Shown piece by piece: positions 1,263 through 59,843 of a stretch of 64,000 nt of DNA; positions within the stretch are counted from its first letter, which is position 1; each line of letters starts with the position of its first letter. Under the pieces are notes generated by a model that had not been told where the DNA came from, ran no database searches, and saw only the letters and a program-made list of their open reading frames with translations. The stretch is taken from the NCBI GenBank assembly GCA_030247885.1, contig JAPDRO010000002.1, positions 1,984,001-2,048,000 of the forward strand, read 5' to 3'. Made by a program: the position numbers and the translations under genes. Source of the DNA: Taxawa tesnikishii (nom. ined.) (taxonomy: Eukaryota > Ascomycota > Dothideomycetes > Dothideales).

Positions 1263-2875
1263 ATGGCTCCCTACTTCGGCCTTCGAGGCATGCCACTGGT
1301 CATGGCCGTGACCCTGGCCTGCTCGACGGGATTCCTCCTGTTTGGGTACGACAACGGCGTCTTCTCCGGCCTGACCACCGACCCGCTCTTCCTCGCGACC
1401 ATGGGCGATCCTGACGCTACCCTCCTCGGTTTCATCGTCGCAGTATACGAGCTCGGCTGTCTCGTCGGCGCCATCGCATCCGCCATCTGGGGAGAAAGCC
1501 TTGGTCGCCGCAAGTTGACGGCTGGAGGGTCGTTGATCCTCATCATCGGCACCGTCATCCAATGCACCTCGTACGGGCAGGCGCAGATGATCGTAGGGAG
1601 AATCGTGACTGGCTTCGGCATGGGCGGAATCACAAGCGCGGTTCCAGTCTGGCAATGCGAGACCACGCCCGCATACCTGCGGGGCCGTACCATCGCGATG
1701 GAGCTCTCTACGCTCATCGTCGGCATCGTGATAGCTTATTGGATCGACTACGGATGCTCCGGATACACGAACAGCTTCCAGTGGCGTTTCCCAATCGCAT
1801 TCCAGATCGTTTTCGCCCTCGCCCTGATCGTCATGTGCTTCTGTCTCCCCGAGAGCCCACGTTGGCTCGCGAGTCACCAGCGTGAGTCGGACGCGTTGCA
1901 AGTCCTCTGCATGCTGCGGGATGGATCCCCAGAGGACGATCGGGTCAGCTTCGAGTTCAACGAGATCAAAGACGCCATCGCGCTTGAGGAGGAAGAGTCC
2001 GGCTCCTGGAAGGACTGCTTCACGGACGGCGGCATCATGGGCTGGCAACGCGTCGCAATCGCATGCTCCGCACAAGCCCTCCAGGAGTTCACGGGCACTA
2101 ACATCATCACTTACTATGCGCCGTATGTCATGGTGCACAGTGTGGGCCTGAACTCGCACCAGGCGCTGCTCCTATCCGGCGGACTGCAGCTCTGGTTCCT
2201 CGTCGCGTCCATCATTCCGTGGTTCATACTGGACAAGGTCGGCAGGCGCAAGCTTTTCATCTTCGGCAGTCTGGGTATGGGTAGCTGCATGCTCATTTCC
2301 GGGCTGACCATCATGGCCGGAGGGAGAAACAACGGCATCGGCGCAGTCGTCATGTTGTACATGTTCCAGGTAAGATGAACATCCCTCCCTCCTCTCCACC
2401 AAGCCCAACGTGTTACGAACCTCTGATTCCTGATGCTCACCTTGTGTTAGGCCTTCTTCACCTGGGGCTGGATGTCGAACATGTGGTGCTACCCCTCCGA
2501 GATCCTCCCCTCCGCATCCGTCAACGCGGTTCCGCCCTCTCCGTCGTCTGGCAATGGCTCATCACCTTCCTGGTCGTCGAGATTACGCCCGTCGGCATCC
2601 AGAACATCGGCTGGAAGCTGTACATTGTATTCTGCATCCTGAACTGGGCCACGATCGGCGTTGTCTGGCTTTGGTACCCGGAGACGGCGGGCAAGACGCT
2701 CGAGAGTATAGACTTCTTGTTTGCGAGTCAGACCAGTCTGAGGCAGGTTGTCAAGCTGAGCAAACAGAACAAGGTGGATGATGTGGCTGTTGCACGCGAA
2801 GTGCAGGCAAAGGTGCACGAGGAGAAGGAAGGGAAGGGCGTGGCGCATATTGACATGGATGAAAACAACGATTAG
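1263..2875 (+). CDS. MFS sugar-type transporter, two exons, one apparent frameshift
   Basis: A plasma-membrane major facilitator of the sugar transporter family (about 510 residues, the usual length with 12 membrane helices). Exon 1 is 1263-2369 and the intron 2370-2450 (GTAAGA..TTAG). The ATG at 1263 gives MAPYFGLRGM just before the first helix. Signatures: GESLGRRK after helix 2, PESPRWLAS before the central loop, DKVGRRK after helix 8, and a PETAGKTLE version of the PETKG motif near the end. The order fits quinate, lactose and hexose carriers, but the substrate is unknown. Exon 2 starts in frame (AFFTWGWMSNMWCYPSEIL), then homology moves to the -1 frame (RIRQRGSALSVVWQW) at the CCCC run 2507-2510. 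One missing C restores a full-length protein; see the finding on frameshifts. Confidence 0.85.
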
Positions 2876-3104
2876 GAAATAGAAAGTAGGATGAGACTGT
2901 GCAAGCAACTTATACATTCGCCTGCATCGTAGCCACGGGAAATCTCCGTCATCCAGAGTCATAGATTCCGATCGCTTGGACGAGACCTAGCGAGGTGAAC
3001 GATTGAACAACTAGATAAAGAAAAATTCGGTTGACTGGGGTTGTCGATGGATGGGGCGCTCCATGGACTCTAAGGCGCGAATTCATCGAATGCGGGGTAT
3101 GATA

Positions 3105-7557: not shown

Positions 7558-8503
7558 ATGTTGTCGCCATCGCAGTCCACGGAGCCCACTCCAACGCCGC
7601 AATCAACTTCTAACAGTAAATCCACACTATCCTCTAGACCAATTGACGCCCTCGACGATGACCTTGCCAAAATCTACACTCACGTCCATCCCGTCCTTCT
7701 TCTCGCCGTCTTCTACTGGCAGTTCCCCGCCTTGGTCTCCGACCCGATCACTGCGTTGTACAGAACGGTGCTCCCACTGGGCGTGCTTCAGCTCATCTAC
7801 GTGTGCGTCTGTCTGCCCTCAAGCAACCATGCAATCACATCCAAAGGGCAACGCAAAAAGGCGTCAAGCATGAGTCCATCGGGATAAGCTGGAAAGTGGT
7901 TGTAGGTCTTCCTTCCGTCTCCTTCCCCATTCTCGTCTCAGGGTGAAGAAGCTAGACTTTGTGAACTGCTCGAAGCGAAGTACTAACGCACACCTCAGCC
8001 AGCAATCCTCTCTCTAATCCTCGCCCTTACTTGCGCCACGCCCGTCCTTGCAATTGTCCTCATCCTCTTCGGCGCCCCCTTCACGACGCATCAATTCCAC
8101 ACTATGCTCTCTGCAGCTCACATCTCGCTCCTCTCCGCTTTTCCACTGTTCTACGTTCACGGAGTCGACGCGGCGCGTTGGAGGGAAGTTCTGGCGCTAT
8201 CTGCGCCCATCGATGGGGTGTTTGGTGCTGCTTTCGGAACGATGCTGGGGGCTTGGGCGGGCGCTGTGCCAATCCCCTAGACTGGTAAGTGCGAAAACGG
8301 CTTGTGCCACAATATGCGAACATGCGGCAAGAGCACGATGAGATATGGAGCTCAAGACTTAGTCTAGGGACTGTGCTGACATCTGAACGCACAGGGATCG
8401 CGAGTGGCAGAAATGGCCAGTGACGATCGTCACAGGCGCATACATTGGCTTCGTGGTGGGCAAGTTGGCGGGCGGATATCTGCTTCGGGGCAAAAAATCT
8501 TGA
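7558..8503 (+). CDS. GPI11: GPI-anchor biosynthesis protein Pig-F/Gpi11, three exons, two apparent frameshifts
   Basis: Membrane protein of the ER that works with the ethanolamine-phosphate transferases adding the last groups to the GPI core. Exons are 7558-7901, 7999-8284 and 8395-8503; the introns are GTAGGT..CTCAG (with TACTAAC 10 bp before the end) and GTAAGT..ACAG. The Pig-F signature near the C-terminus is clear: LGAWAGAVPIP, LDW, then DREWQKWPVTIVTGAYIGF. About four to six hydrophobic helices are seen. Two frame changes are needed, at the A run 7855-7859 and the C run 8274-8277, both fitting one lost base. Allowing for them the exons total 741 nt, a clean 246-residue protein. The ATG at 7558 precedes MLSPSQSTEP. 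Confidence 0.85.
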
Positions 8504-19521: not shown

Positions 19522-22500
19522 TTACACCATCTCCTCGGGCCTCTGTCCCGTCCCCGCCCTCGTGAGCCCCGAATCCGTCCTCTTCCTCTCGAAACTCTTG
19601 CGTTCCTTGCTCACACTGGGAGTCAAAGTCTTCGCAAAACTGAAGAACCCTTGTCTCAGATCCAGCCCGTCTCCTCCTCTCCTTCCCCTGCTCCTTCCCC
19701 TATCGTCCGTCTGACCGTCGGAGAACCATCCCGTAGACCTCTTGACGGCCTTCCAGGCCTCCATGCCCAGCACGAAGACGAGCACGAAGCCGATGCTCAG
19801 GGCCCACTCCCAGCTTATGCCCTTGTGCTTGAGGGCGTCCGTGTTCAGACCGGGGATGTAGACGGCGGGGAAGACGGAGATTGCGCCGAGCGCGACCGAG
19901 TAGAAGAGGAACTTGTTCTCCCACAGATCCCTGAAGACCTGGAACGCGCCGCCCTGACTGTGCGGATCGAGACTGAAGAGACTCCGACGCAGGCTTTTGA
20001 TCTCCCACGCCGAGATCAGGATCGCCCACGTGAGTTCGGCGAAGACGGCGGCGCGGGCGCGGAAGACGACGTCGCAGGAGGGCGAGTAGTGCCGGTTGCA
20101 ATTCTCCCCGAGGATGTCGGCAGAGGTGGTGCCGGTGGAGCCGTAGACGATGATGACAAAGGTCATGAGACACAGAGTGCCCATGATGGTGCCGTAAACC
20201 AGCATGTCTGCGATGATCTGCCAGGTGAAGACGCCCTTTTTGTTGTCGTGTGGTGGACGACTCATGATGTTGTAGACCGCTTTCTCCTTGCCGAGGCCGA
20301 AGGCCGGGAAGGAAGATGTGAGCATGTTGATCCAGAGGATCTCGACGGGGGCGAGCGGGAAGACGGAGAAGCCCGTGCTGTCTTGGAAGGCGAGGCCGCA
20401 GATCAGGAGGAGGACTTCGGCCACGTTGCTGACGAGGAGGTGAAGCACGAATTTCTGGATGTTATCAAACATGCGGCGACCCTCTTCGATCGCGTTGACG
20501 ATGCTGGCAAAGTTGTCGTCCGTCAGGATGATGTCCGACGCACCTTTGGCTACGTCGCTGCCCGCCATACCCATTGCGATTCCAACGTCGGCAGCTTTGA
20601 GGGATGGTGCGTCGTTGACTCCGTCCCCGGTCATGGCGGCGTAGCAACGGCGACGGTGCAGAGCTGCAATCATCCGGGTCTTGGTTTCTGGCGCGCAGCG
20701 AGCGATGACGAGCGGCAACTCTGGCAACGCGTCGATCTCCCCTTCCGTCATCCCATCGAACTCGGCCGCTGTCTTGACCAGAGAGTCTGCCACGTCGGCT
20801 GGCAGAGTCCCGAGATTGCGCGGGATGATGCCGACTTCCTTGGCGATGGCGGACGCAGTGCCCGGGTGATCACCCGTAAGCATGTGGACGCGGATACCCG
20901 CGTTGGTACACTCGCGCACAGCGTCCTTGGTCTCCAGGCGAGGAGGGTCGTACAATCCAGCGAGGCCCAGAAGCGTGAGGTCCCTCTCGATATCATCTCG
21001 TGGAATCCCCGATCGTTCGGCAATCTCACCATCCCAGTCTTTGCGAGCGATGGCGAGAACCCTCAACCCTTGGTCAGCGAGCAAGCTCATCTGCTCGAGG
21101 ACGGATCCTTTCATCTTTTCATCCATAGACTTGTTGTGTTGACCCAGCCCCACGCTTGTGCAGAGATCAATGATGCGCTCGACGGCGCCTTTGGTAAATA
21201 TTAGAGTCTTCTGGCTGCCGGAAGAGTTTGGGGAGACATAAGCGACAGACATGCGCTTGACGGTGCTGTCGAAGGGGTACTCTGCTGTCTGCTTCCACCC
21301 GCTTTCCTCCAGCGCCTTCTTGCCGTAGTCGAAGCGGTGGGAAAACACCTGCAAGGCGATCTCGGTGGGATCGCCCGTCGTCTGCCACTTGCTTTCCTGT
21401 TCGTTGAAGCGGACAGTGGCAAGGTTACAAAGAGCTGAAGATTGGAGAAAAGCTTCCAGCTCGGCAACGACCTCTGGGTTTTCGACTTGTTCTTTTCGTT
21501 GGTGCCGGCTTCCTGCCATTTCTCCTCAGGAACGTCGAATCTCAATGCGGCCGCGCTGCGCTTGTTGTCAAGTTCAGCGGCCCTCTGCTCTCGGTCGCGG
21601 TCCGCCTCAGACTTGCTCTTCGCTGGACCGAGAGAAACGGTCCCCTTTGTCGGATCCGAGGCGTCCTCGGAATTATTGACAGAGTAGATGCCGACACCAG
21701 GTATCCAAGCCTTGCGTGTGACCATCTGACCTTGTGTCAGGGTGCCTGTTTTGTCAGAGCAGATGTTGGTGATGCCACCAAGTGCTTCCAAGGCCGAGAG
21801 TTGGCGGGTGACGACTTTGCGCTTGCGCATCTGAGTCATGCCCACGACGAACGTGATGGTCAGAACAGCGACAAGCGATTCTGGGATGATGGCGATACCT
21901 ACGATGTGGTCAGTACATGGTCACATTCTGATTTTGTCCGCAGACCTACCCGTAGAAATGGCGTAGATTGCGACCTCGTCCGTGACGTTGAATCTGTTGA
22001 CACCAAACACAATGATGGCCAGGAGAATGGCACAGCCAAAGAGAATGTAAGCCAGTTTGTTCAGCTTGATCTGCAAAGGCGTGCCGCCGGTCAAACCAAG
22101 GAACTGTGCAATGCTGTCGAACGTCCGGAGACCAGCACCCTTTACTGGCTGGAAGGTGCCGTACTTTTTGCGAGACATTGAGCGATTCGGCTTGCGCTTC
22201 TTGCCCTGCATGGACTCTGCAATCTTGCCGATTTCGGTGTTCATGCCAGTAAATACAACTGCGTCTGTCAGTGGTTGGAACAGTGCTGGGCTTGGTTTGT
22301 CTTACCTATTCCGAGGCCACGGCCTCTGGTGACTGATGAGGAAGAGTAGGCCATGTTGATCCGGTCGCCTACGCCGGTTTGTAGCTCGTCGTGATCGGAG
22401 AAATCGACATCGAGGTCCTTCGCCACAGGTACCGCTTCTCCCGTCAGAATCTTTTCGTCGCATTCCAAGTTCATGACTTCGAAGAGACGGAGGTCTGCCG

Positions 22501-23869: not shown

Positions 23870-25008
23870 TCATGGCGAGTCAGGAGGCAGAACTTCTTCT
23901 TCGGCAGCATACCGCGTCCGCTTGCTCTCGAGTGCGCCAGTCCGTGTCGCGCGTTTGCGCTTCCCGCCCGGTCCGACGAAGCTCTCAACCCAGTCTTGGA
24001 CCCTCTGTAGCTTGCCGGAAACGTTAATGGATAGCGAGGACCCTTCCAAATCGACCATGCTGCTGTCGCCGTCTCGATGCAGAAGCGCAATCTTGGTTGT
24101 GTTCTTAGTCATCCTCCGATTGAGACTCTGGCCGAACACCTGACCGTTGAAAGTGCTCAGCGCGATGCATTGCACGAGCACGATATCTTGTGGTTGCAAG
24201 CCCTGGAGGGATGCTCGCAGCTCGTCCATCCTTTGTTGCTGTTGCTGGGACCCGACTGGAACAAGCCACGAGCTGATATTGAACCCGGCTTTCGTCTCGT
24301 CACCCACGACAATCTCGACGACGTCCATGCTGTAGTTTCCCTTGCGGACTTGAACGGTGCGAGTCGGTGCAACATTGATGATTCCGACGATCAGATTGAC
24401 AGTCACAGTCTGAGGCCGTATCTTGAGTAGATGAGGCACGGTTGGGATAGCGTCGAGGTTGGTGATGGGTCCGGAGAAAGTCACAACCTGCTTTACGCGA
24501 GGAGGGTTCATTGATACAGAGACTTCCGTCGGCAACTCGGAGTGGTCCGAGAAGGAAGTCATGAACGAAGTTGTCGTAACGAAAGTAGTGTCCTCATCCT
24601 CGACGTTCTCGTGAGGCGCGATTTGAGAGGATTGGAGACCTTCATGCACGGCCAGCGAGTACTCGAGGAATTCCTCTGGATCTGTGCGGTGTTTGGGGCG
24701 GCGGTGTTGCTCGTGTAGCAAGGTGAGGTCCTGCAGCGGACTTCCAACTCCGTATTGGGCTGCGTGTTCGTCCTGGTGCTCGTGCTGTGGCTTGAGAGAT
24801 TGGCTCTGATGGAATAGTAGGCCGTCGAGCGGAATTTCCTCCAGTCGGCCAACAACTGGGTGGCTGGTGTGGAAAGTGGGGGGACGACGGTTGTTTCGCC
24901 CAAGTGGCGCCGTACGGAAGAGGCGAAGTTGTTCAGCAGGCCTTCTTCGTCCCAGTCCAGGCTTGTGGCTAGGGGAGCGCCGGAGAAGAATTTGACGCGA
25001 GAGGGCAT
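23870..25008 (-). CDS. Probable nucleic-acid-binding OB-fold protein, one apparent frameshift
   Basis: An intronless gene starting at the ATG at 25008 (MPSRVKFFSGAPLATSLDWD). After about 44 codons the frame changes at the G run 24878-24883; the -1 frame then continues as TFHTSHPVVGRLEEIPLDGL and FHQSQSLKPQHEHQDEHA to the stop at 23870-23872. With one base added the gene is 1,140 nt, 379 residues. The central-to-C-terminal half resembles an OB fold of the RPA/shieldin type: VKQVVTFSGPITNL, TVTVNLIVGIINVAPTRTVQ, the GNYSMDVVEIVVGDETKAGF strand pair, ISSWL, then QPQDIVLVQCIALSTFNGQV. The tail is basic (GGKRKRATRTG) and could be a nuclear signal. Fold assignment is by pattern only; a role in DNA repair or telomere biology is a guess. 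Confidence 0.6.
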
Positions 25009-25512: not shown

Positions 25513-26737
25513 ATGCCTCGCCTCGCACACAACATGCAATCGCTCATCCGCGGCATATCGGAGCGTTTCACGCCCAACGCCTCGTCCAGCAACCTCGCCG
25601 GCTTCCAGAGGGAGAAGGATGTAACGCTGCTCTTCCCCAAGACCGATCCCGCCGTCGACGGCGAGCAATGCCTGCACGACTGCGATTCATGCACCATCCA
25701 CTACCCCAACAAGTTCACCATCGACGAGGACGAGAAGCTGTACGGTCACGTTAACGGCTGGAGCACCCACCTGATCATCGGTACGGGGAAGACGGACTGG
25801 GTGCGCGATGTCGAGGACGAGAAGGGCAGTGTGATGGAGGCGGTTGGGAAGACCAAGGGCAAGATCAGTAATGGGGTATGTGTATACGCCGGCGCGACCC
25901 TTCCTCCACACCCTCCTCCACACCCTCCTCCCTCCGCGCCTTTGCGAAGAGTCGCTCGCTCGCTCCCAGCCAACTCACTCGGCACCAAGACAATCGAGTC
26001 ACTGACCAGGAATCTCGCGGCGTAGAAAATGATGCTCTCCGCCTCCAACATGCCCGTCCCGCACACCTCCCACGACGACCCCGCCGGCTCCGTCCGCACC
26101 GACGTGCTCCTCTTGCCCGCCTTCACAGTCATCTCGAACGTGACGCCGCAAAACGTGCCCGACCTGATCACGCACGTCATCAACAACGCACCCACCAACA
26201 CAACCCCGCTCCAAGTCTCCCAAAGCGGCGACGGCGGCGGCATCCACGGCGCGAGCGCGGAAGTCACGTCCCCACCCCTCCTCCCACTCCCTCCCTGCCC
26301 TCCGGCCTGACCTCCAAACCCTGCCCGCACGCGTACGTCATCCTCCTGTGCTCGCAAGCCACGCGCGACGCCCGCTGCGGGCAGTCGGCGCCCCTGCTCC
26401 GCCGCGAGTTCGAGCGCCACCTGCGGCCCCTCGGCCTCTACCGCGACCTCGACGACGCCCGTCCCGGCGGCGTGGGAATTTACTTCATCAGCCACGTGGG
26501 CGGCCACAAGTTCTCCGCAAACCTCATCGTCTACCGCCGCGGCAGCGCGCCAGGGAGAACCAGGCCGCCGACGGCACCCCCGCCCAAGAGGCCGCCCAGT
26601 GTATCTGGCTGGCCAGGGTAAGGCCCGAGGATTGCGAGAATATCGTCAGGTACACTATCCTGCAGGGCAAGGTCGTCAAGCCCGAAAGGCAGTTGAGGGG
26701 CGGCTTCGATCGGAGTAGGCAGGTCGTCAGTTGGTGA
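25513..26737 (+). CDS. Apd1/Aim32-type thioredoxin-like ferredoxin (sucrase/ferredoxin-like family), two apparent frameshifts
   Basis: Exon 1 is 25513-25875, the intron 25876-26025 (GTATGT..GTAG) and exon 2 26026-26737. The ATG at 25534 (MQSLIRGISERF) is an alternative start. Family marks: CLHDCDSCTIHYP near the N-terminus, and in the C-terminal half the ligands of a [2Fe-2S] cluster as in Apd1: CSQATRDARC (C-x8-C) and SHVGGHKFSAN (H-x3-H), then CIWLARVRPEDCENIV. Two frame changes are needed, one near the C runs 26270-26278 and one near 26545-26551 (GCGCGCC), both one-base losses; the total is then 1,077 nt, 358 residues. Yeast relatives affect hydroxyurea and redox-drug tolerance (Apd1) or mitochondrial redox quality control (Aim32). 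Which of the two this is stays open. Confidence 0.82.
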
Positions 26738-30300: not shown

Positions 30301-31256
30301 AGACGTGGCCTGCGAAGATCTGCTCGAGCTTTTAGCTGTTGAACTACCTGCACGTGAAGAACTAGACTGTGCGCGTGACGATGCGGGGAGCTGGATGGAC
30401 GGCCTGATGTCCGGGCAGACGTCGAAGAAGCAGCCTTTGATGACGTAGTCTTGTTAGAGACAACTGGAGTCACAGTCGTGGTCGTCGTTCTGGTCGTGAA
30501 GGATGTGGTGGTGCGGGTTGTATAAGACTGCTTGGAAGACGATGGAGCCAGGGCCCGGCTACTGGACGTCGAGGCTCGACTGGATTGTGTGCTGGGCTTC
30601 GCACTTGACGAAACCTTGTAGGTAGTAGTAGCCTTTGCAGATGAAGTGGTTGAGCTGGGACGAACGCTGGTCTTCGATGACAGGATGCTCGCAGGTTTCG
30701 ACGAAGTGCTTGTGCGGGCCGAGGAGGAGGCGGGCCTTTGGGTGCTGGCAGAGTTTGAGTGGCTGGTGGTCGAGCTGATAGCCTTCGTGGAGGAAGACCT
30801 TGCACTCGCAAGGTTTGCAACAGTAGGGACAACGGAGACCTTGCTGGAAGACTTGCTAGAAAAGGAGGTGGGATACCTTGTAGTGGAAGCCGCTGCTGTG
30901 GAAACTGCTGCCGCTGCACAAATGTTCGAGTCCTCACTCGTATACCAAGCAGTCAAGGTAGTAGTTGAGCTCTTAACAACTCCGTTGGACGTGTAAGGAA
31001 CAACGGCAGTCAGGAGAGTCGACCCAAGGGCTGTGTATGCTTGTACTTGACCATCCGATATCTGCTGAACAGTAACAGCTCTCCTCTGTATGTGTGAAGA
31101 GTCTTCAAGAGCTAGCGCGTCGGTTGGAAGGTTCCAATGGATTTCTTCTGTAGTACTAGGTAATGGCTCAGGTAAAGCAGTTGCACTGTGTATCTGTGAG
31201 AAAGTTAGCAACAGGCTCAAAGGCAAAGCCTGACGGAGAAACGACGTCTCCTTCAT
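27316..31256 (-). CDS. ENG1: Secreted endo-1,3-beta-glucanase, glycoside hydrolase family 81, one apparent frameshift
   Basis: Wall enzyme that cuts beta-1,3-glucan, used in yeast for daughter-cell separation and in moulds for wall remodelling. Exons: 31256-30079, 29864-27891 and 27813-27316. The ATG at 31256 starts a signal peptide (MKETSFLRQALPLSLLLTFS). A Ser/Thr-rich, mucin-like region fills the first ~400 residues. The GH81 domain follows: LETNKFYANFFLGNQNQAVF, THPYSLSW, FNDHHFHYGYFVYAAA-type sequence (YYNDHHFHYGYF), DWYHGHSWAKGLFESGDGKD and QESSSEDTMASYAIKMWG with the catalytic Glu. It ends in a charged tail. One frame change lies at the G run 30385-30388 inside the Ser-rich region; with one base added the total is 3,651 nt, 1,216 residues. 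The 213-bp first intron is longer than most here. Confidence 0.88.
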
Positions 31257-33911: not shown

Positions 33912-36661
33912 ATGGAGACCGCCCTTGCACAGCAGCCTGTCTTACAGGAACGGCCTCAGCATCGCCGTAACAAATCTTCGACAATGCTCAAGTCCATTAT
34001 AGTTCCTAAGAGGCATAAGCGGACCAGCTCGGAAGATGTCTATCAGCAGCCTATATCAACCCCTGAAGTTCAAGATGGCATCAGTTCACGAACCACAATG
34101 GTGCCTCTACTTCCTCCGGATCATCCCGCTGCCCAAGCTATGGCAACAGCTCAAGTCAGAGCAACAGCAAGAGCATCAGAAGCCACATCGCGTAAGGGCA
34201 AAGAAAACCAGGCACCACGTTCTAAGAGCAGGGTGTCACTTCGCGGAAGGGGTCAGGAGAAGGAGGAGAAATGGGGAGAGTCAGAACGGTCGAAGTCGAA
34301 ATCACCGAAGAAAGCGAAAAATCCAAGTCCTCGACGAGTTTATCTGCAATGTTTGCAAAGATGAACAGATCATCTAAGGACCTTCACGATACACCACAGG
34401 CTACAGCGGACAAGGAGAACATGGCACCTTCATCGCCCGCGAAGGTACCATTGGAGACTCCTATCTGGGCACAATACGCGATGGAAAAAGCTGCCGTCGA
34501 AGAACCATCAAAAAGGTTATCAGTCATCAGCATACAGGGACGGTCACGCACACTGGAAGAAGAGATCGCTCTGTATACACCCGAGAACTATTCACCATCC
34601 AAGCAAAGAAACTTTCAAGGCTACCAGCCCACTCTGAGCCGGCCCACATCCTCAGCCCGACCAAAATCGTTCATCGATGTGCTTGGACGCAAACTGAGTG
34701 GAGAGCGATCCAGGCCGACCTCAAGGGGCAGCGACGAGCTAAAGCTGGAGAAGAGGGATAGCAAGGAGGGGTGCAGGAGGTCATCAGGCGGAGGCCAGTC
34801 AGCAGAGAACCGTGGCATGTTTGGAAGGAAGGTTAGCAGCAGTAGCACAGAACAGCCACCACCGAAACCAGACTTGAGGGTCACCAAGCGTGGTAACCGC
34901 GTCATGGCCGCTGTTGCAGCCATCAACACAAAGGTCAACGGTCCCACAATGCTCACAGCCGAGTCTCAACTGGACCCCAAGGAAGTAGACGCCGCGTTCG
35001 AGGCCGTTCTGGAAGCCCGCAACGTGCCGGAGAACATGCGACAGAAGATGCGCACCCTCACATTGCGTGTCAAGGCCGACTTTATCAAGCAGGACAAGGG
35101 CTCGCAGGCGACGCCGATTCCAGCAAACAAGCGGGATTCAAAGTGCTCCAACTGGTCCCACTCGTCCGAGGAGAACAGTGTACCGCAAAGCTCGCAGAAC
35201 GGATCCGCGGCTAAGGTGGACGAGAATGCGAAGGAAGACAAGCCCGCGAGGCCGCGAAGTAAGACGTTCTCAAGCAGCAAGACGTTCACTTTTTCGAAAG
35301 GCGACAAGAGCGGCAAGGGCGAGTCGTCGCCAAAGAAGCAGAAGGGTGGGGAAAGTCGCAGCCGGCCCACGTCGATGCATATTGAGCAGTCAGCATCCAT
35401 GGTATCCCTAAGCGGCAACGGGCCCAGCTCATCCAGCCACAAGGGACCAAAAGCGGTATCCCCGACGACTTTGTGAACTACCTGCGTGCCGTCCCAGATC
35501 CGACCAAAGTCGAAGTGGGCCGCCTGCACAAACTGCGTCTGCTACTGCGTAACGAGACTGTTGCATGGGTCGATTCATTCATCTCCCTGGGGGCATGACC
35601 GAAATCGTGCAATTACTACACCGCATCATGGCCATAGAATGGCGCGAAGAGCACGAAGACCAACTCTTGCACGAGACTCTACTGTGCCTGAAAGGGCTCT
35701 CTACAACCGAAGTGGCGCTGAAGAAGTTGGACGACATGGCGGATTCGCTTTTCCCCGCTCTGCTGGGCATGTTGTTCGACGAGGAGAAGAAGGGGCCAAG
35801 TGAATTCAACACTCGAGCCATCATCATCAACGTTCTCTTCGCACACTTGAGCGCAGTCTCTCGCTCCGACGCCACAAGACTCGAACAGCGCGCCCGCAAA
35901 GTCATTTCCTACCTCGCCGACCCGCAGAAGCCCGAAGATGCACAGCCCATCCCCTTTGTGCTCTCGATGCGACAGTCGCGTCCTTACCGCATGTGGTGCA
36001 GGGAAGTGAGCAACGTGTCCAAAGAGGTCTTCTGGATCTTCTTGCATCATCTGAACGTGGTCCCCTTGCCTTCGTCCAGGCCCGCCACCTCCGATGCCTC
36101 TGCGCCGGATGCAGCCAGTGCATGCGGAGACTCCGCGGTCTGGGCCGCGAAAGTCGGCAGCCCCGAACAGCACTCCTACACCACACGCCACTTCCCCGGA
36201 CTCCGTCCTCCCGTGCCCGCGGCACCCTACATCGGCGGCGTCGAGTGGGATGCCACGACCTACATAGCCGCGCATCTCGATCTACTCAACGGTCTCCTCG
36301 CTTCCCTCCCTACTTGCGAAGCGCGCGACTTCCTCCGCTCTGAGCTCCAGGCCTCGGGCTGGGAGAAACTCATGGGCGGCACGCTACGTACCTGCAAGGA
36401 GAAGTTCTACGGAGGTGTGCATGATGGACTCAGGTCTTGGGTTGCGGCGGCGGCGGAGGATGGCTGGGACACTGCTTTCGTGAGATGCGGGCCGACCAAG
36501 GAGGACTTGGAGAGGGAGATGGTGGCCAGGAGTCCGAAGAAGAGTCCTAAAAGAAGGAAGAGGTGCCTAAGATTGAGGCGCTGCCATTGCCGAAGCTGGA
36601 TCTCGATATCGGCGCTGGTGCTGCAGAGGGTGGGAAGGAGGTCGATGGATGGTTGATGTAG
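33912..36661 (+). CDS. Formin-type GTPase-binding (GBD/FH3) protein, four apparent frameshifts
   Basis: An intronless gene of about 917 residues. The N-terminal ~500 residues are disordered, Ser/Lys-rich and basic. Then comes a diaphanous-type GTPase-binding and armadillo region: DFVNYLRAVPDPTKVEVGRL, HKLRLLLRNETVAWVDSFIS, GGMTEIVQLLHRIMAIEWRE, EHEDQLLHETLLCLKGLSTT. It has no FH1/FH2 actin part, so it is one of the fungal stand-alone GBD/FH3 proteins expected to bind Rho-family GTPases at growth sites. Frame changes are at the A run 34317-34321, near 35455-35463 (GG or CCCC), the G run 35589-35593 and the A run 36549-36552. Each fits one lost base, and the corrected length is 2,754 nt. The end KIEALPLPKLDLDIGAG..GWLM uses the last frame, with TAG at 36659-36661. 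Confidence 0.8.
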
Positions 36662-39788: not shown

Positions 39789-42700
39789 CTAGAACGTCCT
39801 GTCCTCATTCTCATCGTCCTGTGAGCGTGGCACGCGCGTCGTCGGGCTGACTGGAGTTGCAGGCGCGAGCTCATTGTGGCATTGCGGCAGGGGTGTCACG
39901 TCCGGTGTCAGAAGACCAGGTCCTGCAGCACGTGAGGCATCGAATATGGAATCCTTGAATCGCGTCTGCACAAAAGCGCCGGGGTCCGTGTCCTCGGTCA
40001 GTGCGGCAGAGCCGGCACTCTCAGCTGCTCCAGCAAGGACCATGGTATCGTCGGCCGTATTGGCGACCTCAGTAACTGGCCTTGTTGACACAGCAGGGTG
40101 AGGAGGAGTATCTTCGAAGGTAGGATTAGGGGTTTCGGCGGTATCAACTGCTGCGTCGACGGCTGCTTCAGGCTCATTATCGCCAGGTACGGCGTCAGCT
40201 TCATCAGTCAGCGTTGCAGGTTCTCTTTCGTCTGCCGTAGAGGCAGCGTCTTCATCTGCTGAAGATTGCCTGCCTCGCGGATAGCCTGCCCATGACCCTG
40301 CCAAACCAAGGCCAATTAGCTCATGTCGTACCAGATCCTTCCATATTCCGATGAATCGCTTGTTCAAGTCATCCGGTTGGGTGAGCGGCGCGTTACGGAA
40401 CTGCTGCCATGCATCTGCCCAGACACCAACGAAGCTGTGATAACCAGCGACAAAGGCGTCCCAAACGCTGAAGATGCTCTTAACTCCTTCGATGATGGCA
40501 TGGACAAGAATCGCAAATAGCAGAAGCGCGAAGCCGATGGTCAGGGTGAACAGCAGCTCGATAAGTGCCACAAGCCATGATCTGACCTGGCTGGTGAGGG
40601 TGTGAAGGTTACGCACGAACTGACGGGCTGCGTTCAGGGGTCGCTGATGACGGCCCAGAGTCTGTTTTGCACAGCCTGCCAGAGGCGCCCTAGCGCCTCT
40701 CCGTACTTGAAGTTCCAGAGCAATGACACCACCCATTGAATGAAACTTGCGACCCACATAGCCCATCGCAAAAAGATGTTCCAGATAGCTGCCCCTTTTG
40801 GAGGATCCACTGTTCGATCACCAGGACGCCGTTGCGGGAGTAAGCCTTCACACTAGTCCAGAACTCCTGCATGGCGACTGGCCCATCAGTATCACCTTCA
40901 GGTGCATCCTCGAGGTTCTGAAGACCCCGACCAATTACACAACAGGTGTATACTGTGCCAGCCGTTGGGATAGACAAGCCGAGCACTACGAGGGCGATCA
41001 GATTGTCGGCCAAAAAAGATTGCCACCATTCACCGTGCGACAAGCACTGCACCGTTGTCTGCATGTAGGACAATATACGGTCAACCTGCTTGTCAAACTG
41101 CATCAACAGAAACGGCATCCGGCTGGAACCGTACTGGGAAAGAGTAGCCGTGGTGTCCAGTATACGCTCCGTGAGTCTCCAAAGCTCAAAACCTGGAGAA
41201 CTCTCAGGTTTGATGGTGGTTCTAGACGTTGTCGAGACCTCTGAGGATCTTGAAACCTTTGTGGTCGATGGGACTGAAGTAGTGACGGTGCTTGTCGAGG
41301 TTGTACTCGACGCAATTGTAGTAATGAGGGTCGTCATTTGCGACCTGGACATAGGTGGAAGTCCAACAGTAGCTGGCGCAGGACGGAGTGATTCAGTAAA
41401 AGATAAGCCTTCTTTGGGGATGCGAGATATGGCATAGGTGACGACGGCCACCACGAAAAGGGGATAGAGAGGGTTGACTCGCCGGAATCCAGATGAACCC
41501 AGGATTAACAGGACAGCACTAGTCCCAACAACCGCCACCCCAGCCCAGTAGATCTTCCACGGGGCCACAGTGTATACCATCGCTCCAATTGAGCCGGACC
41601 AGATGTGTCGGGAAACAGCTTCAGCGATCTCGGCAATGTCACCTACTACTTCCGTCGAAAGGAGCCAGACGTAACCAAGGTAGCCTTCTGCTGAAGGCCA
41701 CGGTACATGATCAACAGCTTTGAAGATTGCGAAGAGGATGGAAACTAACGATGCCGGCGTCGCGAAGATGGCGAGCTTTTCGGCAAGGGACCGCAACAAG
41801 ACTGGGAGGTGAGCCGGTGCAACGCGGTTGAATTGCAGAAGGGATGTTGCTACTGATAGGACGGCGTTTTTCACAAACCGGCGATAATCGATCAGCCCAT
41901 GTTGCATTCTCTGAGAGATTGCACGCACAAACCCTTGCTGTTGGATTTGCGGTACATCGACAGCAGGTGCGCACACACGCTCGAAGACACGCCCATCGTC
42001 AACATAGGCATCACAGAGGGTGTCGATTAGGTCCTGATCCGGAAGAGAGGCAGGCCCGTGTTCAAAATCCCTGCGGCCGCCTGGCGTGTGAATTAGGGGA
42101 AAGCCAACAAACCGACGCAGAATGAAGTGGTCAAGAGCGTAAGTGAAGACAGAGTACACGCATGCCAACGTGATTGAAAAGTTGAGGTCGGCCCGGTCGA
42201 ACTTGACAGTGAGATAGACGAGTTCCATGAGAAAACCTGCGATCACCATTTGCGAGATTGTGTGTTCCAAGAATCGGGCCCATGCTGGCTCCCTATGGAC
42301 CACAACAGACGGGTGTACCGAACTGACGGCTGGTGGAATGCTAGAACTTAGGGTCGGTGGCAACTTCTGGGGCACCAGCGGTGATGGGACGTTGATAGTT
42401 GAACTTGATGGGAGGCATGGAATGAAGAGGACGGATCTCGGTCCCAGCCAGTAGTAAGTCTGTTGAATCAGGCACGCCAACGTTATGACGACCCTTGCGA
42501 TCTGTAGAGCATCATGGACCAGAACATTGATTAGGTAATTTAGTGGCAGAGAATCAAGCTCAGTTTCTTCAGTCAGCTCCCTGATGGATTCTTGAACGAT
42601 GCTAATGTTGCGGTCGGTTGTGGTGTCGTGGTACTCCTTCCAGACACCCGTTGGCATGCTCGGGGTACGGCTAAGCGTGACCTCAACGGTGTCTGGCACC

Positions 42701-43980: not shown

Positions 43981-45714
43981 ATGCCGGCCTTCTCTTCAAT
44001 ATTGGAATACACAACACGGACCCTCGCAGCCGCGCAAACCTGGATGGACCAGCGAGTTCTTCTACCACCATTTGCGGCAAACATCGAGTCAACACATCCT
44101 GCACGAATAACACCTACAATGGACGCCAGAGTCGCAAGCCAATTGAGGCCCTACATGCCTCCCACAGACCCTTCCATCTACAGTGATGTGTATCCCGAAA
44201 ATCCTCACTCCAAGATTAAAGAAGTGGCAAGCCTCATGACGGAATGGTACGACCTGCTTGTCAAGATGCGATATGTCAATGCGCAAGATATTGCGTATCC
44301 ACCACACATTTCGAAACCCATCAACACCAAACACGCCGCTGAGTTCGGACTTGTGAAGGACGTAGTGGACCTGATGCAGATGATGCCCTACCACATCGCC
44401 TACGGTTCCACGAACTGGAATCACGGGTCGGATGCCGGCGAGTTTCTTTCTGGGGAGAATTCGGCGCCGACATGCGCGACGAGGACGCCGATTGGTTTCA
44501 CAATATCGTCGATCCCTTCTATGGTGTTCAGTATGTGGAGTCCGGTGATCCGGTGAAGGGCTTCGATGAGGAAGATGGTCTGTACATGCGTCCGTGGTAT
44601 CTTGCGTTAAACCAGATGGGAAACCATGGCAGTTTGTTGATTCTGAATACCAAGGACTTCAACATGTGGCTCGTAGACCAAATGGGATCTGTCACGGATC
44701 CGGCGTTGCGCGATGCGCCGCAAAAAAGACCGCCAACCGAAACGATCTAAGCCAGTACCCGAGTCGGCCAGCGACAGAGCTGCTGAGAGATATGATTGAT
44801 AGGATCAGGACGTTGGAGTATGTACCTGGAGGTCTATACGGTCCTGAACACCAAGAGTATCAGGTGTGTTCTGCCCTTCAAAACACAATGAAGCAGCGGC
44901 GATCCCAAGAGGCTGTTAGCGTTAGCCACTGACCGCTTGGCGCGATGCCCGTTTACGGCAATCGTATCGAGTACGGAACAGATGCCTGTACAACAGAAGA
45001 ACGGGTTATGGCTCGCCTCTTTTGAGTGTCCACGTCCTCCTCGTACATACACTCCATGTCAAGAACCGGCACATCTTCGTTCTATAATCTGTGCCAAGAA
45101 TTGCGATGATATTCTGACCCTGCCAGGTATTCAAGGACATGTACATCTCTGCGGGCTGGCCCGATAACTTTGATGGCGCCATCTTCGATCACTTACGAGC
45201 TGAGCGCGAGCAATTCGAGCAAGACCGTCACCGAGCCGAACAGCCCTTGGAAGAACTCAAAACATTCAAGCAGTGGGCCCAAAACACCCAAGACCAGAAA
45301 AAGTGGTACCACGACACGGTAGCCGCACTCGAAGCCCTTCCACCGGACGCAGATCCTGAGAAGCGCAAGGAACTGGAGGACACGAGGGACCGCACCGGGC
45401 AGCGCTTCTTGCCCGAGGGCTTCGCAAAGCAGCAGGACGAGTACAGGACAACGATTGCTGAGCGCAAGATGAAGCTGCAAACGCTGCTCGAGGAGAATCC
45501 GGATGTGGATCGGGAAAAGTGGGAAGAGAACCGTGTTGCCTGGGAGAGGAGGGATCATGAGCGCGTCATTGCGGCGCTTGAGGAGGAACTGGAGTACACA
45601 AGTTTCGAGGATCGCGACAGGAAGAGGATCGAGAAGGCCCAGATCAAAGCCGATCTGGTTGATCCGGCAATCAGGAAGGCGTGGGAAGAGAGGGTTGCTA
45701 AGTATGGGTACTGA
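43981..45714 (+). CDS. Conserved fungal protein of unknown function, two apparent frameshifts
   Basis: Exon 1 is 43981-44863, the intron 44864-45126 (GTGTGT..CCAG; long, and it may hide a small exon) and exon 2 45127-45714. Frame changes lie at the G run 44452-44455 and the A run 44722-44727. With both one-base losses allowed for there are 490 residues. The N-terminal half is globular (YDLLVKMRYVNAQDIAYPPH, MPYHIAYGSTNWNHGSDAGE, FGADMRDEDADWFHNIVDPF, GLYMRPWYLALNQMGNHGSL), a pattern I have seen only in uncharacterised fungal proteins. The C-terminal ~190 residues are highly charged and probably coiled coil (LRAEREQFEQDRHRAEQPLE). The first ATG is at 43981. There is no signal peptide. Function unknown. 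Confidence 0.65.
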
Positions 45715-46552: not shown

Positions 46553-48089
46553 ATGAGATCCCAGATCCCCTCCCGCCGCATCGCCGTGGCAGCATCGCTA
46601 CTCACGTCCGCTTCAGGAGTCATTGCTGGTTCTTCGGCCACCTGCCTCAACCCACAGCTCAGCTGCTCCAACACCACGGTTGTGCAAGATCTGTGCTGCT
46701 TCAATGCTCCGGGCGGGCAGTTGCTGCAGACACAGTTTTGGGACACCAACCCGGTCAGTGGTCCGGTCGACTCCTGGACTATCCACGGACTCTGGTAATC
46801 AACCCCTCCATATTATCAGAGCTCACACGCGCGGTTGCATGCAATTGGGCGCGACGCATACAACTGGGCTCGCACATGCAACCGCAGAGCTCTACTCTTC
46901 TGTCGTCACCGCGATAGCTAACGCGTACTCGTTCAGGCCAGACCACTGCGATGGCACCTACGACGCCAACTGCGACGACTCGCGCGCCTACACCAATATC
47001 ACGCAGATCCTACAGTCTTTCGGTAAGACGGATCTGCTTTCGTACATGCAAACCTACTGGCCCGACTACCAAGGCAACGATGAGAGTTTCTGGGAGCACG
47101 AGTGGGGCAAGCACGGAACCTGCATCAGCACCTTGAAGCCCTCCTGCTACGACTCCTACGTTCCGACGCAGGAAGTCCCGGATTTCTTTCAGAGGACTGT
47201 TGATCTTTTCAAGACGCTGCCGAGCTACCAGGTAAATCTACCCTCAGACCTATCAGGTCTACCCCCAATCTCGTTGCCCTTTCCCTTGCCCTTCTTGGCC
47301 TTCACACTACTTGTACCTCTCATACCCGCCACCTCGCGTACAACAGAGTTAGGACTGACGACGTGCAAAGTGGCTCGCAGACGCAGGCATCACCCCTCAA
47401 CAACAGCAACTTACACCTCCGCTCAAATTCAAGCCGCCCTCTCGCAACGCCATGGGTACAACGTCACAATCGGCTGCTCCAACGGCGCGCTAGATGAGAT
47501 CTGGTACCACTACCACGTCCTCGGCAGCGTTCAATCCGGCACCTTCGAGCCCGCTGCCCCCGTCGGTTCGGACTCTTGCCCCGCCACAGGCATCAAGTAC
47601 CTGCCTAAAGTCGCCGGCTCCTCCTCCACTGCCACAGGAGCGAGTTCCACCCTCGCGACGTCCACTAGGGCATCGACCACTGCCGCTGCCAGCGCCACAT
47701 CCACAGGCGCGCCGTTCACCGGAAAGGGTTACCTGAACGTCATCCTAGCAGACACAAGCGCGCAGGACGGCTGCATCATCAGCTCGGGGACGTGGTACAC
47801 AACAGGAACCTGCGCCACATACACCGCCGCTGCCTCATCCTCCAGTAAGAACGGCTTCACGCTGCACAGCTCCAAGGGCTACTGTGGCCTCATCAACTCG
47901 ACCTTCGTCTGCGCGGCCTACAACACCGCTGCTAACGCGACTGTGTTCACCGCGGCGGGGCAGCAGCTGAAGGGTGATAATGGCGTCAACTGGAGTGCGG
48001 ATGTGACGCCCACAGGGAGCGTGCAGGCCAAGGTGTATTCGAACAACAAGGAGGATGTTAGGATTAGGATTCAATGGCAGGGTCTCTAA
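46553..48089 (+). CDS. Secreted ribonuclease T2, three exons, one apparent frameshift
   Basis: An endoribonuclease that cuts RNA through 2',3'-cyclic phosphates and acts in the vacuole or outside the cell. Exons: 46553-46794, 46937-47231 and 47371-48089. It starts with a signal peptide (RRIAVAASLLTSASGVIAG). The two catalytic sites are intact: CAS1 WTIHGLW (His about 78), its last Trp completed across intron 1 and followed by PDHCDG, and CAS2 FWEHEWGKHGTC. A third-exon frame change at the C run 47393-47396 joins WLADAGITP to STTATYTSAQIQAALSQRHG; with one base added the length is 1,257 nt, 418 residues. After the T2 core comes a Ser/Thr linker and a C-terminal extension (GKGYLNVILADTSAQDGCII), as in the Rny1-like fungal class. 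Confidence 0.88.
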
Positions 48090-51400: not shown

Positions 51401-51935
51401 AAGTTTTATAATAGTACTTAATAAACTACTTATAAAGCTAATTATTATAAATATATAACCTTATATACTTTTATAATAACTTAATTTAAATCTCTTATTA
51501 CTAAATAGCTTTCCTTTAAATAATACTAAACTATATAAAGTAAACGTAGCGCTTAACTTAGCTATTAAAGCTACGTAAGACTTACCTTCTTTAGTAAAGT
51601 AATATATAAAGTAAATAAGTTACTTTACTAAAATAATATATAGCGAAAATATTATATTATAAAAGTAACTAAAAGAGTAATAAGAACTTCTTAATATATA
51701 AAAGGCTTAAAAGAAGGGAAAGCGAGTCGCATTAAAGGGAAGGTTCGTATTTAGTACTTATAAAGTACTTAAGATAGCGAAGGTAGCAAAAGCGGATTTA
51801 GCCGCTAAAAAGCCACGTGGACGACTACGTAAGCGTGCAATTAAGGAAGTGCTTAAGGATAAGGAAGATAAAGTGCCTGAAAGTATATGTAGCGACTCAG
51901 ATTCTGACTATATCGTTGTTGCGGTGCGTAGATAG
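48444..51935 (+). pseudogene. pogo/Fot1 transposase, broken by stops, frame changes and an insertion
   Basis: Starts at the ATG at 48444 (MSTPMPSKPAYTESDIQSAL). After a frame change in the first 25-30 codons the psq-type helix-turn-helix follows: DYASIRQAARAYSVPYQTLR, DRIAGHNSRARA. The first catalytic block (VYNINESNFVV, family consensus V-Y-N-x-D-E-S-G-F) is near 48965-49000. The second (LLIINSYNSYITIKVITFYI, consensus DGHNSH) is near 51100-51170. These are normally ~100 residues apart but here are separated by an extra 1.8 kb, the nested element. The C-terminal tail is basic (KADLAAKKPRGRLRKRAIKE), then SDSDSDYIVVAVRR and TAG at 51933-51935. Dozens of TAG/TAA stops, many at Trp or Gln positions, are RIP-type. 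It cannot be active. Confidence 0.8.
49085..50883. mobile_element. Second TIR element nested in the pogo transposase
   Basis: 38-bp inverted repeats at 49085-49122 and 50846-50883 differ only by transitions, as RIP would cause; the less changed right copy reads AGTTAGTTACCTTAG from its outer end. TA flanks both ends (49083-49084 and 50884-50885). The boundaries agree with the reading frame of the host transposase, which stops matching just before 49083 and resumes at 50884. Length 1,799 bp, again Fot1-like. Its own coding sequence is too decayed to read, so the family is inferred from size, TIRs and TA duplication. Confidence 0.62.
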
Positions 51936-52008
51936 CGATTAAAGCTAGAGAGTTCGTGTTCTAATGGCCGGATACCCTACCTGGCCGGCTTCCCCGCGGT
52001 TTACGTTA

Positions 52009-54379: not shown

Positions 54380-55817
54380 ATGTCTCTCTTCGCGAACCTG
54401 GGCAACAATAACAATGCCCAGAACCAGCAGCAGCAGCAGCAGCAGCAGCAAACTGGAGCATCAAGTCTCTTCGCCAACTTGGGCAACAACAACACGCAGA
54501 CTAATTCACTGTTCGGATCATCCATGAACAACACTCAGAACGCGCAAACTCAGCAAAACCCATCCGCCAGCCTCTTCGGCCAAAACAATCAACAGCAGCA
54601 GGCAGTGCAGCAGCAGCAGCAGCAACAACAACAACAACCACAACAACAACAACAACCGCAAAGTAGCTTGTTCAATGGTTTGAGCAGCCTCAGCGCGAAC
54701 ACCGGCGCAAACCCAGGCCTCGGAGCTTCTCTGCTCAATACCAACAACACGGCACAGCAAGCACAAATGTCGCAATCACGCCTTGGTTGGGATCCCACCG
54801 CGTCCATGCAACCACGTACGTCTTTCGCCCGTCTTCGCCCGTCTCCGCCAGCATCCCCTTCCCCTTCACCCTGTCTCACCCGTCTTCTTTACCTTTTACT
54901 GCAATCCCTCTCCACCTTGTCCCGCGCAACCAGACGGACGCTCCCCATCCTCACCAACAATACTCAGCACCCTACATCCAACTCACCCCTGTCCGTGCGA
55001 ATCATATCTGTCTCACTAACCCTCCCCTAGGCGAAAAACCCATTCTCCAGCGGCTAAGCCTCTGCCTGCAAAAGTGGTCCCCGATCACCCCCTCACCCCC
55101 TTCCAAACCTACTTTTATAACACCTATCCCTCATCCCTGACCCCTTCTTCGCTCCGCAACCTGGCGAAGACGAGCGCAAGTGGGAGGAAGCCCTCGCCTC
55201 CGCCCCGCAAGCGCCCACCGACTTACCCGCGGGCGTGAGCGCCGTTCCTGTCCTCGCTCGCGGCTTCGGCGACGTCGGTGCGAGATTGAATACCCAGGTC
55301 CAGGCGGTGACGCAATTGCAGGCGCGCTTGCACGAGATGAACAATTCGCTGAATGCGATCATGGAGAGGCATGAGTTGCAGTTGTCAGTCAGGGCGGCGG
55401 AGGCGAAGCGTAAACACGTCATGATCAGCCAGAGGACGCTGGCTTTGGCCGCCAGGGTGCAGGTGCTTAGGAGTAGGGGATTCGTGCTTGGTGCTGAGGA
55501 GGAGGAATTGAAGAAGAAATTGGAGGGACTGGAGAGGGGGTCTTTGATCCGGGGTTCGCGGGACGCGAAGAAGAAGTTTGGGCCAGGATGGTCGGTTTGA
55601 GGAGCGCACGCGCTGGCTGCAGGAAGAAACCGACAAATTGGCAACCGGACACGCGGGTGCGGAGGGAGGGAAGGCCGTGGAGAATGGGATTGATGCCGAA
55701 GTGTTGCAGAAGACAAAGAAGATCCTGTCGGATTATGACGCCCAGCTTCAACACTTGAACAAGGAGCTGGAGATGGTGAAGGAGGAATTCAAGGAGTGGG
55801 AGAAGGCGAGCAGATGA
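54380..55817 (+). CDS. NUP57: Nucleoporin Nup54/Nup57, two exons, four apparent frameshifts
   Basis: Central-channel nuclear pore protein. Exon 1 (54380-54815) is an FG-type region with SLFANLGNNN, SLFGSS, SLFGQN and poly-Gln tracts (CAG/CAA repeats at 54426-54450 and 54591-54660). The intron is 54816-55030. Exon 2 (55031-55817) holds the Nup54 domain: KPILQRLSLCLQKWSP, HPLTPFQTYFYNTYPSS, FFAPQPGEDERKWEEALASA, GFGDVGARLNTQVQAVTQLQ, then coiled coil (EEEELKKKLEGLE, ERTRWLQEETDKLA, LQHLNKELEMVKEEFKEWEK). Frame changes at the C runs 55079-55082 and 55141-55144, the G run 55580-55582 and GG 55601-55602 each fit one lost base; the corrected length is 1,227 nt, 408 residues. The gene is essential or near-essential in yeast, so true loss is unlikely. 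Confidence 0.85.
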
Positions 55818-58014: not shown

Positions 58015-58385
58015 GTTGCTTTGGCGGGTAGTACTGGTAACAAGTCGTATATCAAGTAGTATACAGTACGCGGGCGTGTTGACACAGAGAGGGATGTGGT
58101 CTCGTTCATTCAGAGCCCGACAAGAAACGTCAAACTTTCCGACGAGCTCGGTCAGTGGTCGGTTAGCGCTCGCTTATATCGGTTATGCTCGCTCAATCAT
58201 GGTCACCAAACGTCACGCTTCCGCTTCCTTTCTTTCACCACGCGCATCTCACCAACAACAACAACACCACCACCAACTCACCCTTACATCGTCTTCTCAT
58301 ACACACATCAACCCTCAGCACACCTCGAACCTCTCAAAACTTTTCGTACACCACATTTGGGCAACACAACACAACCAAATCAGCC
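58015..58385. promoter_or_regulatory. Shared divergent promoter TOM5 / IWS1
   Basis: 371 bp between the two ATGs, with an AC/CAA-rich 5' leader on the IWS1 side (about 58250-58385). No site named. Confidence 0.5.
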
Positions 58386-59843
58386 ATGGAAGACCTCCCT
58401 GGTGCCGACAGCCCACCCATCACCGATGACCGTGACCTTCCCGAAGCCAACAACGACCCACAAGATCCGCTCGCACCCTCAATCGATGAAGAAGACCACA
58501 CGCGCACGCCGCCAATTCAGGATCCGAACATGGATATGGAAGCCACCGAAGACGATCAAGCTCCCATCCAAGTCCCTGGCGCCCCGGACAACGACGACGA
58601 TCCCGACTCCGACGCCCTCAGCGAGGTCGATGAGGCCCAGTTCGAGGACTTTGACCCCAACGCCATCGCAATCGAGGAGAGGCCAAGAGTCGTCGATGCC
58701 AGCGGTATTGCGCTGCTAGGCAAGCACAAGAGGAAGAGAGAGGATGGCGATGCAGCCGCGCCGCCAAAGAAGAAGAAGGAGGGTAGGCGCGAGAAGCCGA
58801 AGCGTAGCAAGAAGAACGCCGATGCAGAAGATGACTTCGAGGGCGGCGAAGAGTTGGACGGTAAAAGGAGCAGGAAGAGTAAGGCACCTGGCGAAAAGGT
58901 TGTCAGGCGTAGGAAATCCCCCTCGCCGGACGACGATGTCAATCTGACTCCCGAAGAGCGTAAGTGCACCGCATCCTCTCCCATCGTTTCCTGCACAGTT
59001 TTCACATGCGCAACTCCATTCGGTTTTTCCATTGATGATCTGTACTAACATGCATCACCAGGCCGTCGCAAAGCCTTCAGCCGCCAACTCGATCTCGCGC
59101 TCAAAAAGCCTAAAACGTCGACTCGCCGCGGCCGCGCTGGTATTGACCTCGAAGCCAGTGCTGATGCCGAACTCGAAGACATGCGTCGCCGCATGGCCGA
59201 CGCTGCCCAAGCCGACACCCTCGCCCGCGAAAAGGCCAGCCCGCAATGGAAAAGTTGAGAATGCTGCCCCAAGTCGTTGCCCTCCTCAACCGCAACACCC
59301 TGCAATCCGCCCTCGTCGATCCGGACATCAATCTCCTCGAGAGCGTGCGCTTCTTCCTGGAGCCGTTGAATGATGGATCCCTCCCCGCCTATAACATTCA
59401 GAGAGATCTCTTCACCTGTCTGGCCAAGTTGCCCATCACGAAAGATGCCCTGGTGGCCAGCGGCATCGGAAAAGTAACGCACTTTTACACGCGCTCCCCG
59501 AAGGCCGAACCAGCCATCAAACGCCAAGCGGAACGTCTCGTGGGCGACTGGACCCGACCTATTCTGAAACGCACCGACGATTTCCGCAAGAGAGGTCCTG
59601 GAGGCTGATTACGACCCCTACAATCAACCCACCCAGTTGCCCGTGAGGGGCGATGCGGCCGCGGCCAAAGCGGCAAAAAGAGAACAGGCCAGGAAACAAG
59701 CACTCGCGGTCCCGATGCAGAGTAACAGAGCTAGGGTCGAGGGTGGCCTTGGCACCTATACGATTGCACCCAGGAGTAACGTCGTACCGAGTCAGGGGTT
59801 AGGAGGGTGGGCGCGGGCGGGGATGAGATTGCTAGACGCTTGA
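58386..59843 (+). CDS. IWS1: Transcription elongation factor IWS1/Spn1, two exons, two apparent frameshifts
   Basis: A nuclear protein that binds Spt6 and elongating RNA polymerase II. Exon 1 is 58386-58959, the intron 58960-59061 (GTAAGT..CACCAG, TACTAAC near 59043) and exon 2 59062-59843. The N-terminal 200 residues are acidic then Lys/Arg-rich (KHKRKRED, KKKKEGRREKPKRSKK). The TFIIS N-terminal (LW) domain follows: EKLRMLPQVVALLNRNTLQS, ALVDPDINLLESVRFFLEPL, NDGSLPAYNIQRDLFTCLAK, LPITKDALVASGIGKV. Frame changes: CCC 59240-59242 (one base) just before MEKLRML, and the AG tract 59589-59594 (two bases, giving RKREVLEADYDP). The corrected total is 1,359 nt, 452 residues. The C-terminus is the usual conserved RVEGGLGTYTIAPRSNVV. 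IWS1 is essential in yeast. Confidence 0.88.

Follow-up and report, generated by a model that had tools for sequence, protein, structure and literature searches.

The window analysed here is a 64,000-base stretch of the Taxawa tesnikishii genome, at positions 1984001-2048000 of contig C12 (2,079,929 bases; 29.4 Mb assembly in 34 contigs), and ends about 32 kb short of the end of that contig. Its gene content points to a fungus, probably a filamentous ascomycete. Twelve of its genes are considered: a sugar transporter (MFS), GPI11 (PIG-F), an ENA-like P-type ATPase, an OB-fold gene, an Apd1-like gene, a GH81 gene, a formin-like gene with a GBD, a membrane-protein gene, an unnamed gene, an RNase T2 gene, NUP57, and IWS1. 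The sequence-only reading had placed 23 frameshifts in them, mostly in short runs of a single base (homopolymers). All 23 runs were found in the window as written. About 19 of the proposed breaks were supported: 11 had a tool result on the spot, and eight rested mainly on frame reading, in which the three frames were compared side by side; the other four (GPI11 7855, OB-fold 24878, GH81 30385, and NUP57 55079) were unsupported as listed (Table 1). The stored sequence is broken in frame mostly as described, and the breaks are no new biology.

Table 1. Frame breaks proposed in the window, with the evidence bearing on each.
Feature	Position	Strand	Evidence
Sugar transporter (MFS), -1 break	2507..2510	+	Sugar_tr residues 3-381 and 380-452 on successive frames; codon model loss at 2527
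GPI11 (PIG-F), listed break, unsupported	7855..7859	+	Frame identical on either side of intron
GPI11, -1 break just before intron	8274..8277	+	PIG-F 1-153, then 157-182 beyond intron; frame reading
P-type ATPase (ENA-like), -1 break	21479..21482	-	Domains on different frames; codon model loss at 21486
OB-fold gene, listed break, unsupported as listed	24878..24883	-	47-base intron fits too; codon model loss at 24806 instead
Apd1-like (Suc_Fer-like), first -1 break	26270..26278	+	Pfam continuity; codon model loss at 26268
Apd1-like, second -1 break	26545..26551	+	Pfam continuity; codon model loss at 26548
GH81, listed break, unsupported, outside gene	30385..30388	-	GH81 domains at 27.5-29.65 kb
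Formin-like GBD gene, -1 break, reading only	34317..34321	+	Codon model chose intron instead
Formin-like gene, -1 break, reading only	35455..35463	+	Weak Drf_GBD matches on two frames
Formin-like gene, -1 break	35589..35593	+	Codon model loss at 35592; frame reading
Formin-like gene, -1 break	36549..36552	+	Codon model loss at 36551
Membrane-protein gene, two breaks (40637, 40792), net +1	40637..40795	-	Frame reading; codon model single net gain at 40813
Unnamed gene, -1 break	44452..44455	+	Codon model loss at 44448, score gain 9.1 nats; frame reading
Unnamed gene, -1 break, reading only	44722..44727	+	Frame reading
RNase T2, -1 break, behind intron	47393..47396	+	Ribonuclease_T2 in two stretches; frame reading; missed by codon model
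NUP57, listed break, not needed	55079..55082	+	Adjoining intron acceptor region can explain it
NUP57, -1 break	55141..55144	+	Nup54 domain and NUP57 structure match both begin past the break; codon model loss at 55127
NUP57, two breaks (~55536, 55601), net +1	55530..55602	+	Nup54 and Nup54_57_C on different frames
IWS1, -1 break	59240..59242	+	Structure matches to IWS1 begin past the break; codon model loss at 59239
IWS1, break, net +1	59589..59594	+	Frame reading; either two bases lost or one gained

The clearest breaks were three at which one Pfam domain continued across a -1 change with no room for an intron, one in the sugar transporter near 2507 and both in the Apd1-like gene, where Suc_Fer-like residues 1-91, 90-156, and 155-191 lay in three successive frames. 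At five more sites (IWS1 59240, NUP57 55141, GPI11 8274, ENA 21479, and RNase T2 47393) a match to a domain or solved structure ended or began beside a -1 break, or the frames differed; the frame reading at GPI11 8274 also made use of a motif. The codon-model gene finder described below called losses at nine of the listed sites, each to within 25 bases (MFS 2507, ENA 21479, both Apd1-like sites, GBD 35589, GBD 36549, unnamed gene 44452, NUP57 55141, and IWS1 59240), with small score gains at several of them (0.9 to 9 nats per gene); GBD 35589, GBD 36549, and unnamed gene 44452 had no support from a domain or structure. Frame reading was the main basis for GBD 34317 and 35455, membrane protein 40637 and 40792, unnamed gene 44722, NUP57 55580 and 55601, and IWS1 59589. 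A Pfam search with the OB-fold, unnamed, and membrane-protein genes gave no match. In the GH81 gene the domain starts at 29645 and the open reading frame at 29888, and the listed site lies about 500 bases beyond.

Most of the breaks were of the -1 type, in line with the proposal that every one was a loss and none a gain, which stands in full only if three places with a net change of +1 are read as double losses. These are NUP57 at 55.5-55.6 kb, the membrane-protein gene at 40.6-40.8 kb, and IWS1 at 59589, and each is arithmetically equal to two losses. For NUP57 and the membrane-protein gene, the sensible peptide in the intermediate frame favours two losses each; a comparison of the intermediate NUP57 frame with solved structures gave one match, weak and unrelated. 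With losses alone allowed, the codon model placed them in NUP57 at 55540 and 55578, and when left free it called one gain at 55577. The break proposed at NUP57 55580 is present, with its coordinate wrong by about 45 bases, as it is close to a G run around 55536 that the reading shifts frame.

The balance of losses and gains was measured with a gene finder built on a period-3 Markov model, with splice-site scores for introns and an equal penalty for each lost or gained base; the splice-site weights were taken from general knowledge and were untrained on this genome. The comparison set comprised 19 loci of 10 kb, one on each of contigs C2 to C20, the one on the window's own contig being 1.9 Mb away. 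Locus L002 (contig C1, guanine plus cytosine content [G+C] 0.23) and the window at 48.3-52.0 kb were excluded here and from the run counts below. The model called 12 losses and 2 gains in the window, and 44 losses and 9 gains in the other 19 loci, which together hold 96.6 kb of predicted coding DNA; some of these calls may be false positives. By this model, the window is not special. Together the calls gave 56 losses to 11 gains (binomial p = 2e-8), and the bias was not made by the method, because spiked-in losses and gains were recovered about equally (25 of 30 and 22 of 30, none confused). The losses were also concentrated near homopolymers: a run of at least four bases lay within 12 bases of 22 of the 56 loss calls, or 39%, where the 17,393 coding positions gave 14.5% (p = 2e-4); for gain calls the figure was 3 of 11. 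An earlier version with unrestricted GT..AG introns called 1 loss and 1 gain, 6 and 1, and 13 and 4 in the window at three penalties, and 17 losses and 3 gains in the 19 loci; its spike-in recovery was 19 of 28 for losses and 15 of 28 for gains. Its statistics were dropped for their little power and small score gains; the splice-site scores raised the power.

Run lengths in nuclear DNA were counted without two further loci of G+C below 0.5 (L010 and L016). G/C runs are cut off at five bases, in coding and non-coding DNA alike. The step from three to four bases was made by 495 of 2,749 runs in exons (18%) and 429 of 2,006 in non-coding DNA (21%), and the step from five to six by 1 of 74 and 5 of 75, respectively. 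Since a ribosome is unable to shorten runs in non-coding DNA, the cut-off there is not ribosomal. A/T runs were shortened in exons (6/66, p = 0.03).

Frame changes within conserved domains were sought genome-wide by pairing, according to position, 212 listed matches from five Pfam families; for Sugar_tr 9 of 323 candidates were scored, and for kinases 128 of 189. The result was 63 pairs of neighbours, -60 to 400 bases apart. Five had no room for an intron (spare DNA of -7 to 17 bases), and all five were -1 (binomial p = 0.06 for these losses alone); a chaperonin-family gene and an HSP70-family gene were among them. The remaining 58 pairs, one of which falls in the ENA gene of the window, had spare DNA of at least 38 bases and were divided into 22 of -1, 18 of +1, and 18 in the same frame, spread over the three classes as introns should be. 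No break of the no-intron kind was seen among 39 DEAD-box matches checked by eye, for which 37 of 132 DEAD candidates were scored.

The same kind of loss was found in mitochondrial DNA. Contig C25 carries COX1, in which TGA is read through, and ATP synthase subunit C, and by this gene content it is mitochondrial. An assignment to a plastid, suggested by mirrored copies of transfer RNA (tRNA) genes, was dropped, with COX1 present and the photosystem reaction-centre family unmatched. The two ends of C25 carry the same stretch, offset by about 70.9 kb, and their 2,886 aligned columns held 11 insertion or deletion (indel) events, all 11 in runs of at least three bases, and 2 substitution columns that are readable as shifted run lengths. 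Internal mirror copies of C25 differed by 7 indels in 4,006 columns, 5 in 3,076, and 1 in 3,071, the last outside runs of three, with 4, 4, and 8 substitutions, respectively. Contigs C26 and C28, which carry one mitochondrial stretch, differed by 7 one-base indels (5 in runs of at least three) and 17 substitutions in 4,735 columns; the substitutions were largely clustered, so some of the differences may be real. One of these indels lies within a tRNA gene whose length and score are 73 bases and 62.6 bits on C26 against 72 bases and 57.2 bits on C28. COX1 on C26 was split into three overlapping matches, placed so as to imply two -1 breaks, of which the first, read in the DNA, was a -1 change at a run of five T.

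The tRNA positions on C25 (80 kb) suggest a unit of 70.9 kb, in which two halves of about 35.5 kb mirror each other, plus a 9 kb overlap, a layout that suggests an inverted dimer, a hairpin-ended linear molecule, or an artefact of assembly. With COX1 on both C25 and C26, the assembly has two different mitochondrial genomes, a hint of a mixed sample or a symbiont.

Nuclear repeats were compared in the same way. A repeat shared by C2 (L003 5670-7802) and C15 (L016 6866-8999) aligned over 2,134 columns at 95% identity, and 84 of its 103 mismatches were transitions in one direction, a pattern that appears as in repeat-induced point mutation. Its one indel, A4 against A5, was ten bases from an independently called codon-model loss; no indel matched the copy's remaining three calls (two losses and one gain). 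Elsewhere on C2 (L052 and L053), kinase-like matches occurred in pairs of near-equal score hundreds of kb apart, and the single pair compared had 4 base differences in 1,295. Within the window, 48365-51999 is a 3.6 kb AT-rich stretch with matching inverted ends and frame debris, and resembles a transposon, perhaps pogo-like, that has suffered repeat-induced mutation. A related piece (79% over 1.1 kb) was found on C9 (L010 333-1453).

The frame breaks of the window are best explained as residual homopolymer indel errors of the assembly, to which we give a probability of about 0.97. They would be mostly one-base deletions in or near short runs, left in a long-read assembly that was incompletely polished; the reads would come from nanopore sequencing, with bases called by a short k-mer model or the like, and the genes would be intact and normally translated in the living fungus. 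Under-calling of homopolymers was the cause favoured by the sequence-only reading, and is borne out by the ratio of 56 losses to 11 gains, the enrichment at runs, and the occurrence of losses in mitochondrial COX1, a tRNA gene, and non-coding DNA. The other cause it had raised, a systematic -1 slippage in translation, fails, as slippage cannot yield losses in the latter three. A genome-wide slippage of this kind would leave the DNA correct and have ribosomes re-read a base at short runs, and would account for nuclear breaks that are biased to -1, close to runs, and in genes of basic function. Mitochondria, however, have their own ribosomes, and the losses recur there and between versions of one stretch; G/C runs are cut in non-coding DNA; and the classical slippery heptamer X XXY YYZ was not clearly enriched, being present at 2 of the 56 loss calls (1.8% at random, p = 0.28), with a looser XXXYYYZ pattern at 5 of the 23 listed sites when counted irrespective of frame. 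Slippage is next to impossible as an explanation. No greater credence is due to a mixed version, in which slippage at nuclear short runs tolerates thousands of true one-base deletions and the mitochondrial differences are ordinary assembly errors; it is compatible with the mitochondrial evidence taken alone, and the cut-off of nuclear runs in non-coding DNA counts against it.

Loss of one base in a run is a common natural mutation, and the breaks could be true deletions in decaying genes. Decay does exist in the repeats of this genome, as in the one-directional transitions of the C2 and C15 pair. Yet the genes broken include some of basic function (NUP57, IWS1, and GPI11 in the window, and those of the chaperonin and HSP70 families elsewhere), most of the 19 comparison loci had called breaks too, and decay does not account for a mitochondrial stretch that differs between its two assembled versions, which makes it extremely improbable. 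Some of the listed breaks may be misread exon junctions, as introns of about 40-150 bases are present in these genes, and the four sites named at the outset are of this kind or unsupported. Nevertheless, as a general account misread introns are very unlikely: at MFS 2507 and both Apd1-like sites the domain runs on and leaves no DNA to spare, and genome-wide the breaks (spare DNA of -7 to 17 bases) are clearly separate from the introns (at least 38).

Several observations weigh against assembly error. No nuclear break was proved base by base, there being no reads, relative's genome, or clean fungal control, and 34 of the 56 loss calls had no run of at least four within 12 bases. A/T runs were not significantly cut in non-coding DNA (25/131, p = 0.34) and reached 9-10 bases in the mitochondrial contigs. 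The near-identical nuclear pair on C2 had no indel in its 1,295 columns. The conserved-domain rate, 5 breaks in 116 kb, was far under that of the codon model and of the window list, a gap that is unexplained; fewer long runs in domains, and split matches that fall below threshold, may lower it. Two long C runs, C17 (window 18906-18922) and C19 (locus L011 on contig C10), were the sole G/C runs above length 7 in 230 kb. These may be real repeats or a polishing artefact, and no G/C run of 8-16 bases occurred in the same 230 kb. Long-read polishing of nanopore fungal assemblies is also described as having left more insertions than deletions (PMC7500977).

As an error of long reads, the pattern fits published cases in kind. 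Base-callers other than Scrappie are described as capping homopolymers at 5 bp (PMC5889714); indel errors in a long-read bacterial assembly are given as mostly false deletions, most often after runs of four to five (PMC12007338); and conserved genes broken by homopolymer errors in nanopore-only assemblies of a fungus are reported to be cured by short-read polishing (PMC7500977). The cap at 5 bp, the predominance of deletions, and the broken conserved genes are shared with what these sources describe. Unlike in those accounts, the platform here is only inferred, the C17 run is present, and the shortening is milder in A/T than in G/C runs; polishing-made insertions, as described in PMC7500977, are not dominant. 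Euplotes is the described case of genome-wide frameshifting (PMC10235951; PMC5011710), and is similar in that many genes seem to require a change of frame. Its frameshifting is given in these sources as +1 and specified by stop codons, whereas here the changes are mostly -1, near runs, and also in non-coding, tRNA, and mitochondrial DNA.

Were slippage true, the triplet rule would be overturned in a fungus, but the evidence is strongly against slippage. The apparent rate of loss ranges from one in about 2.2 kb of predicted coding DNA, by the codon model, whose calls may include false positives, to one in 23 kb of conserved domains. These results imply that gene models, pseudogene calls, and intron calls made from this assembly are often wrong.

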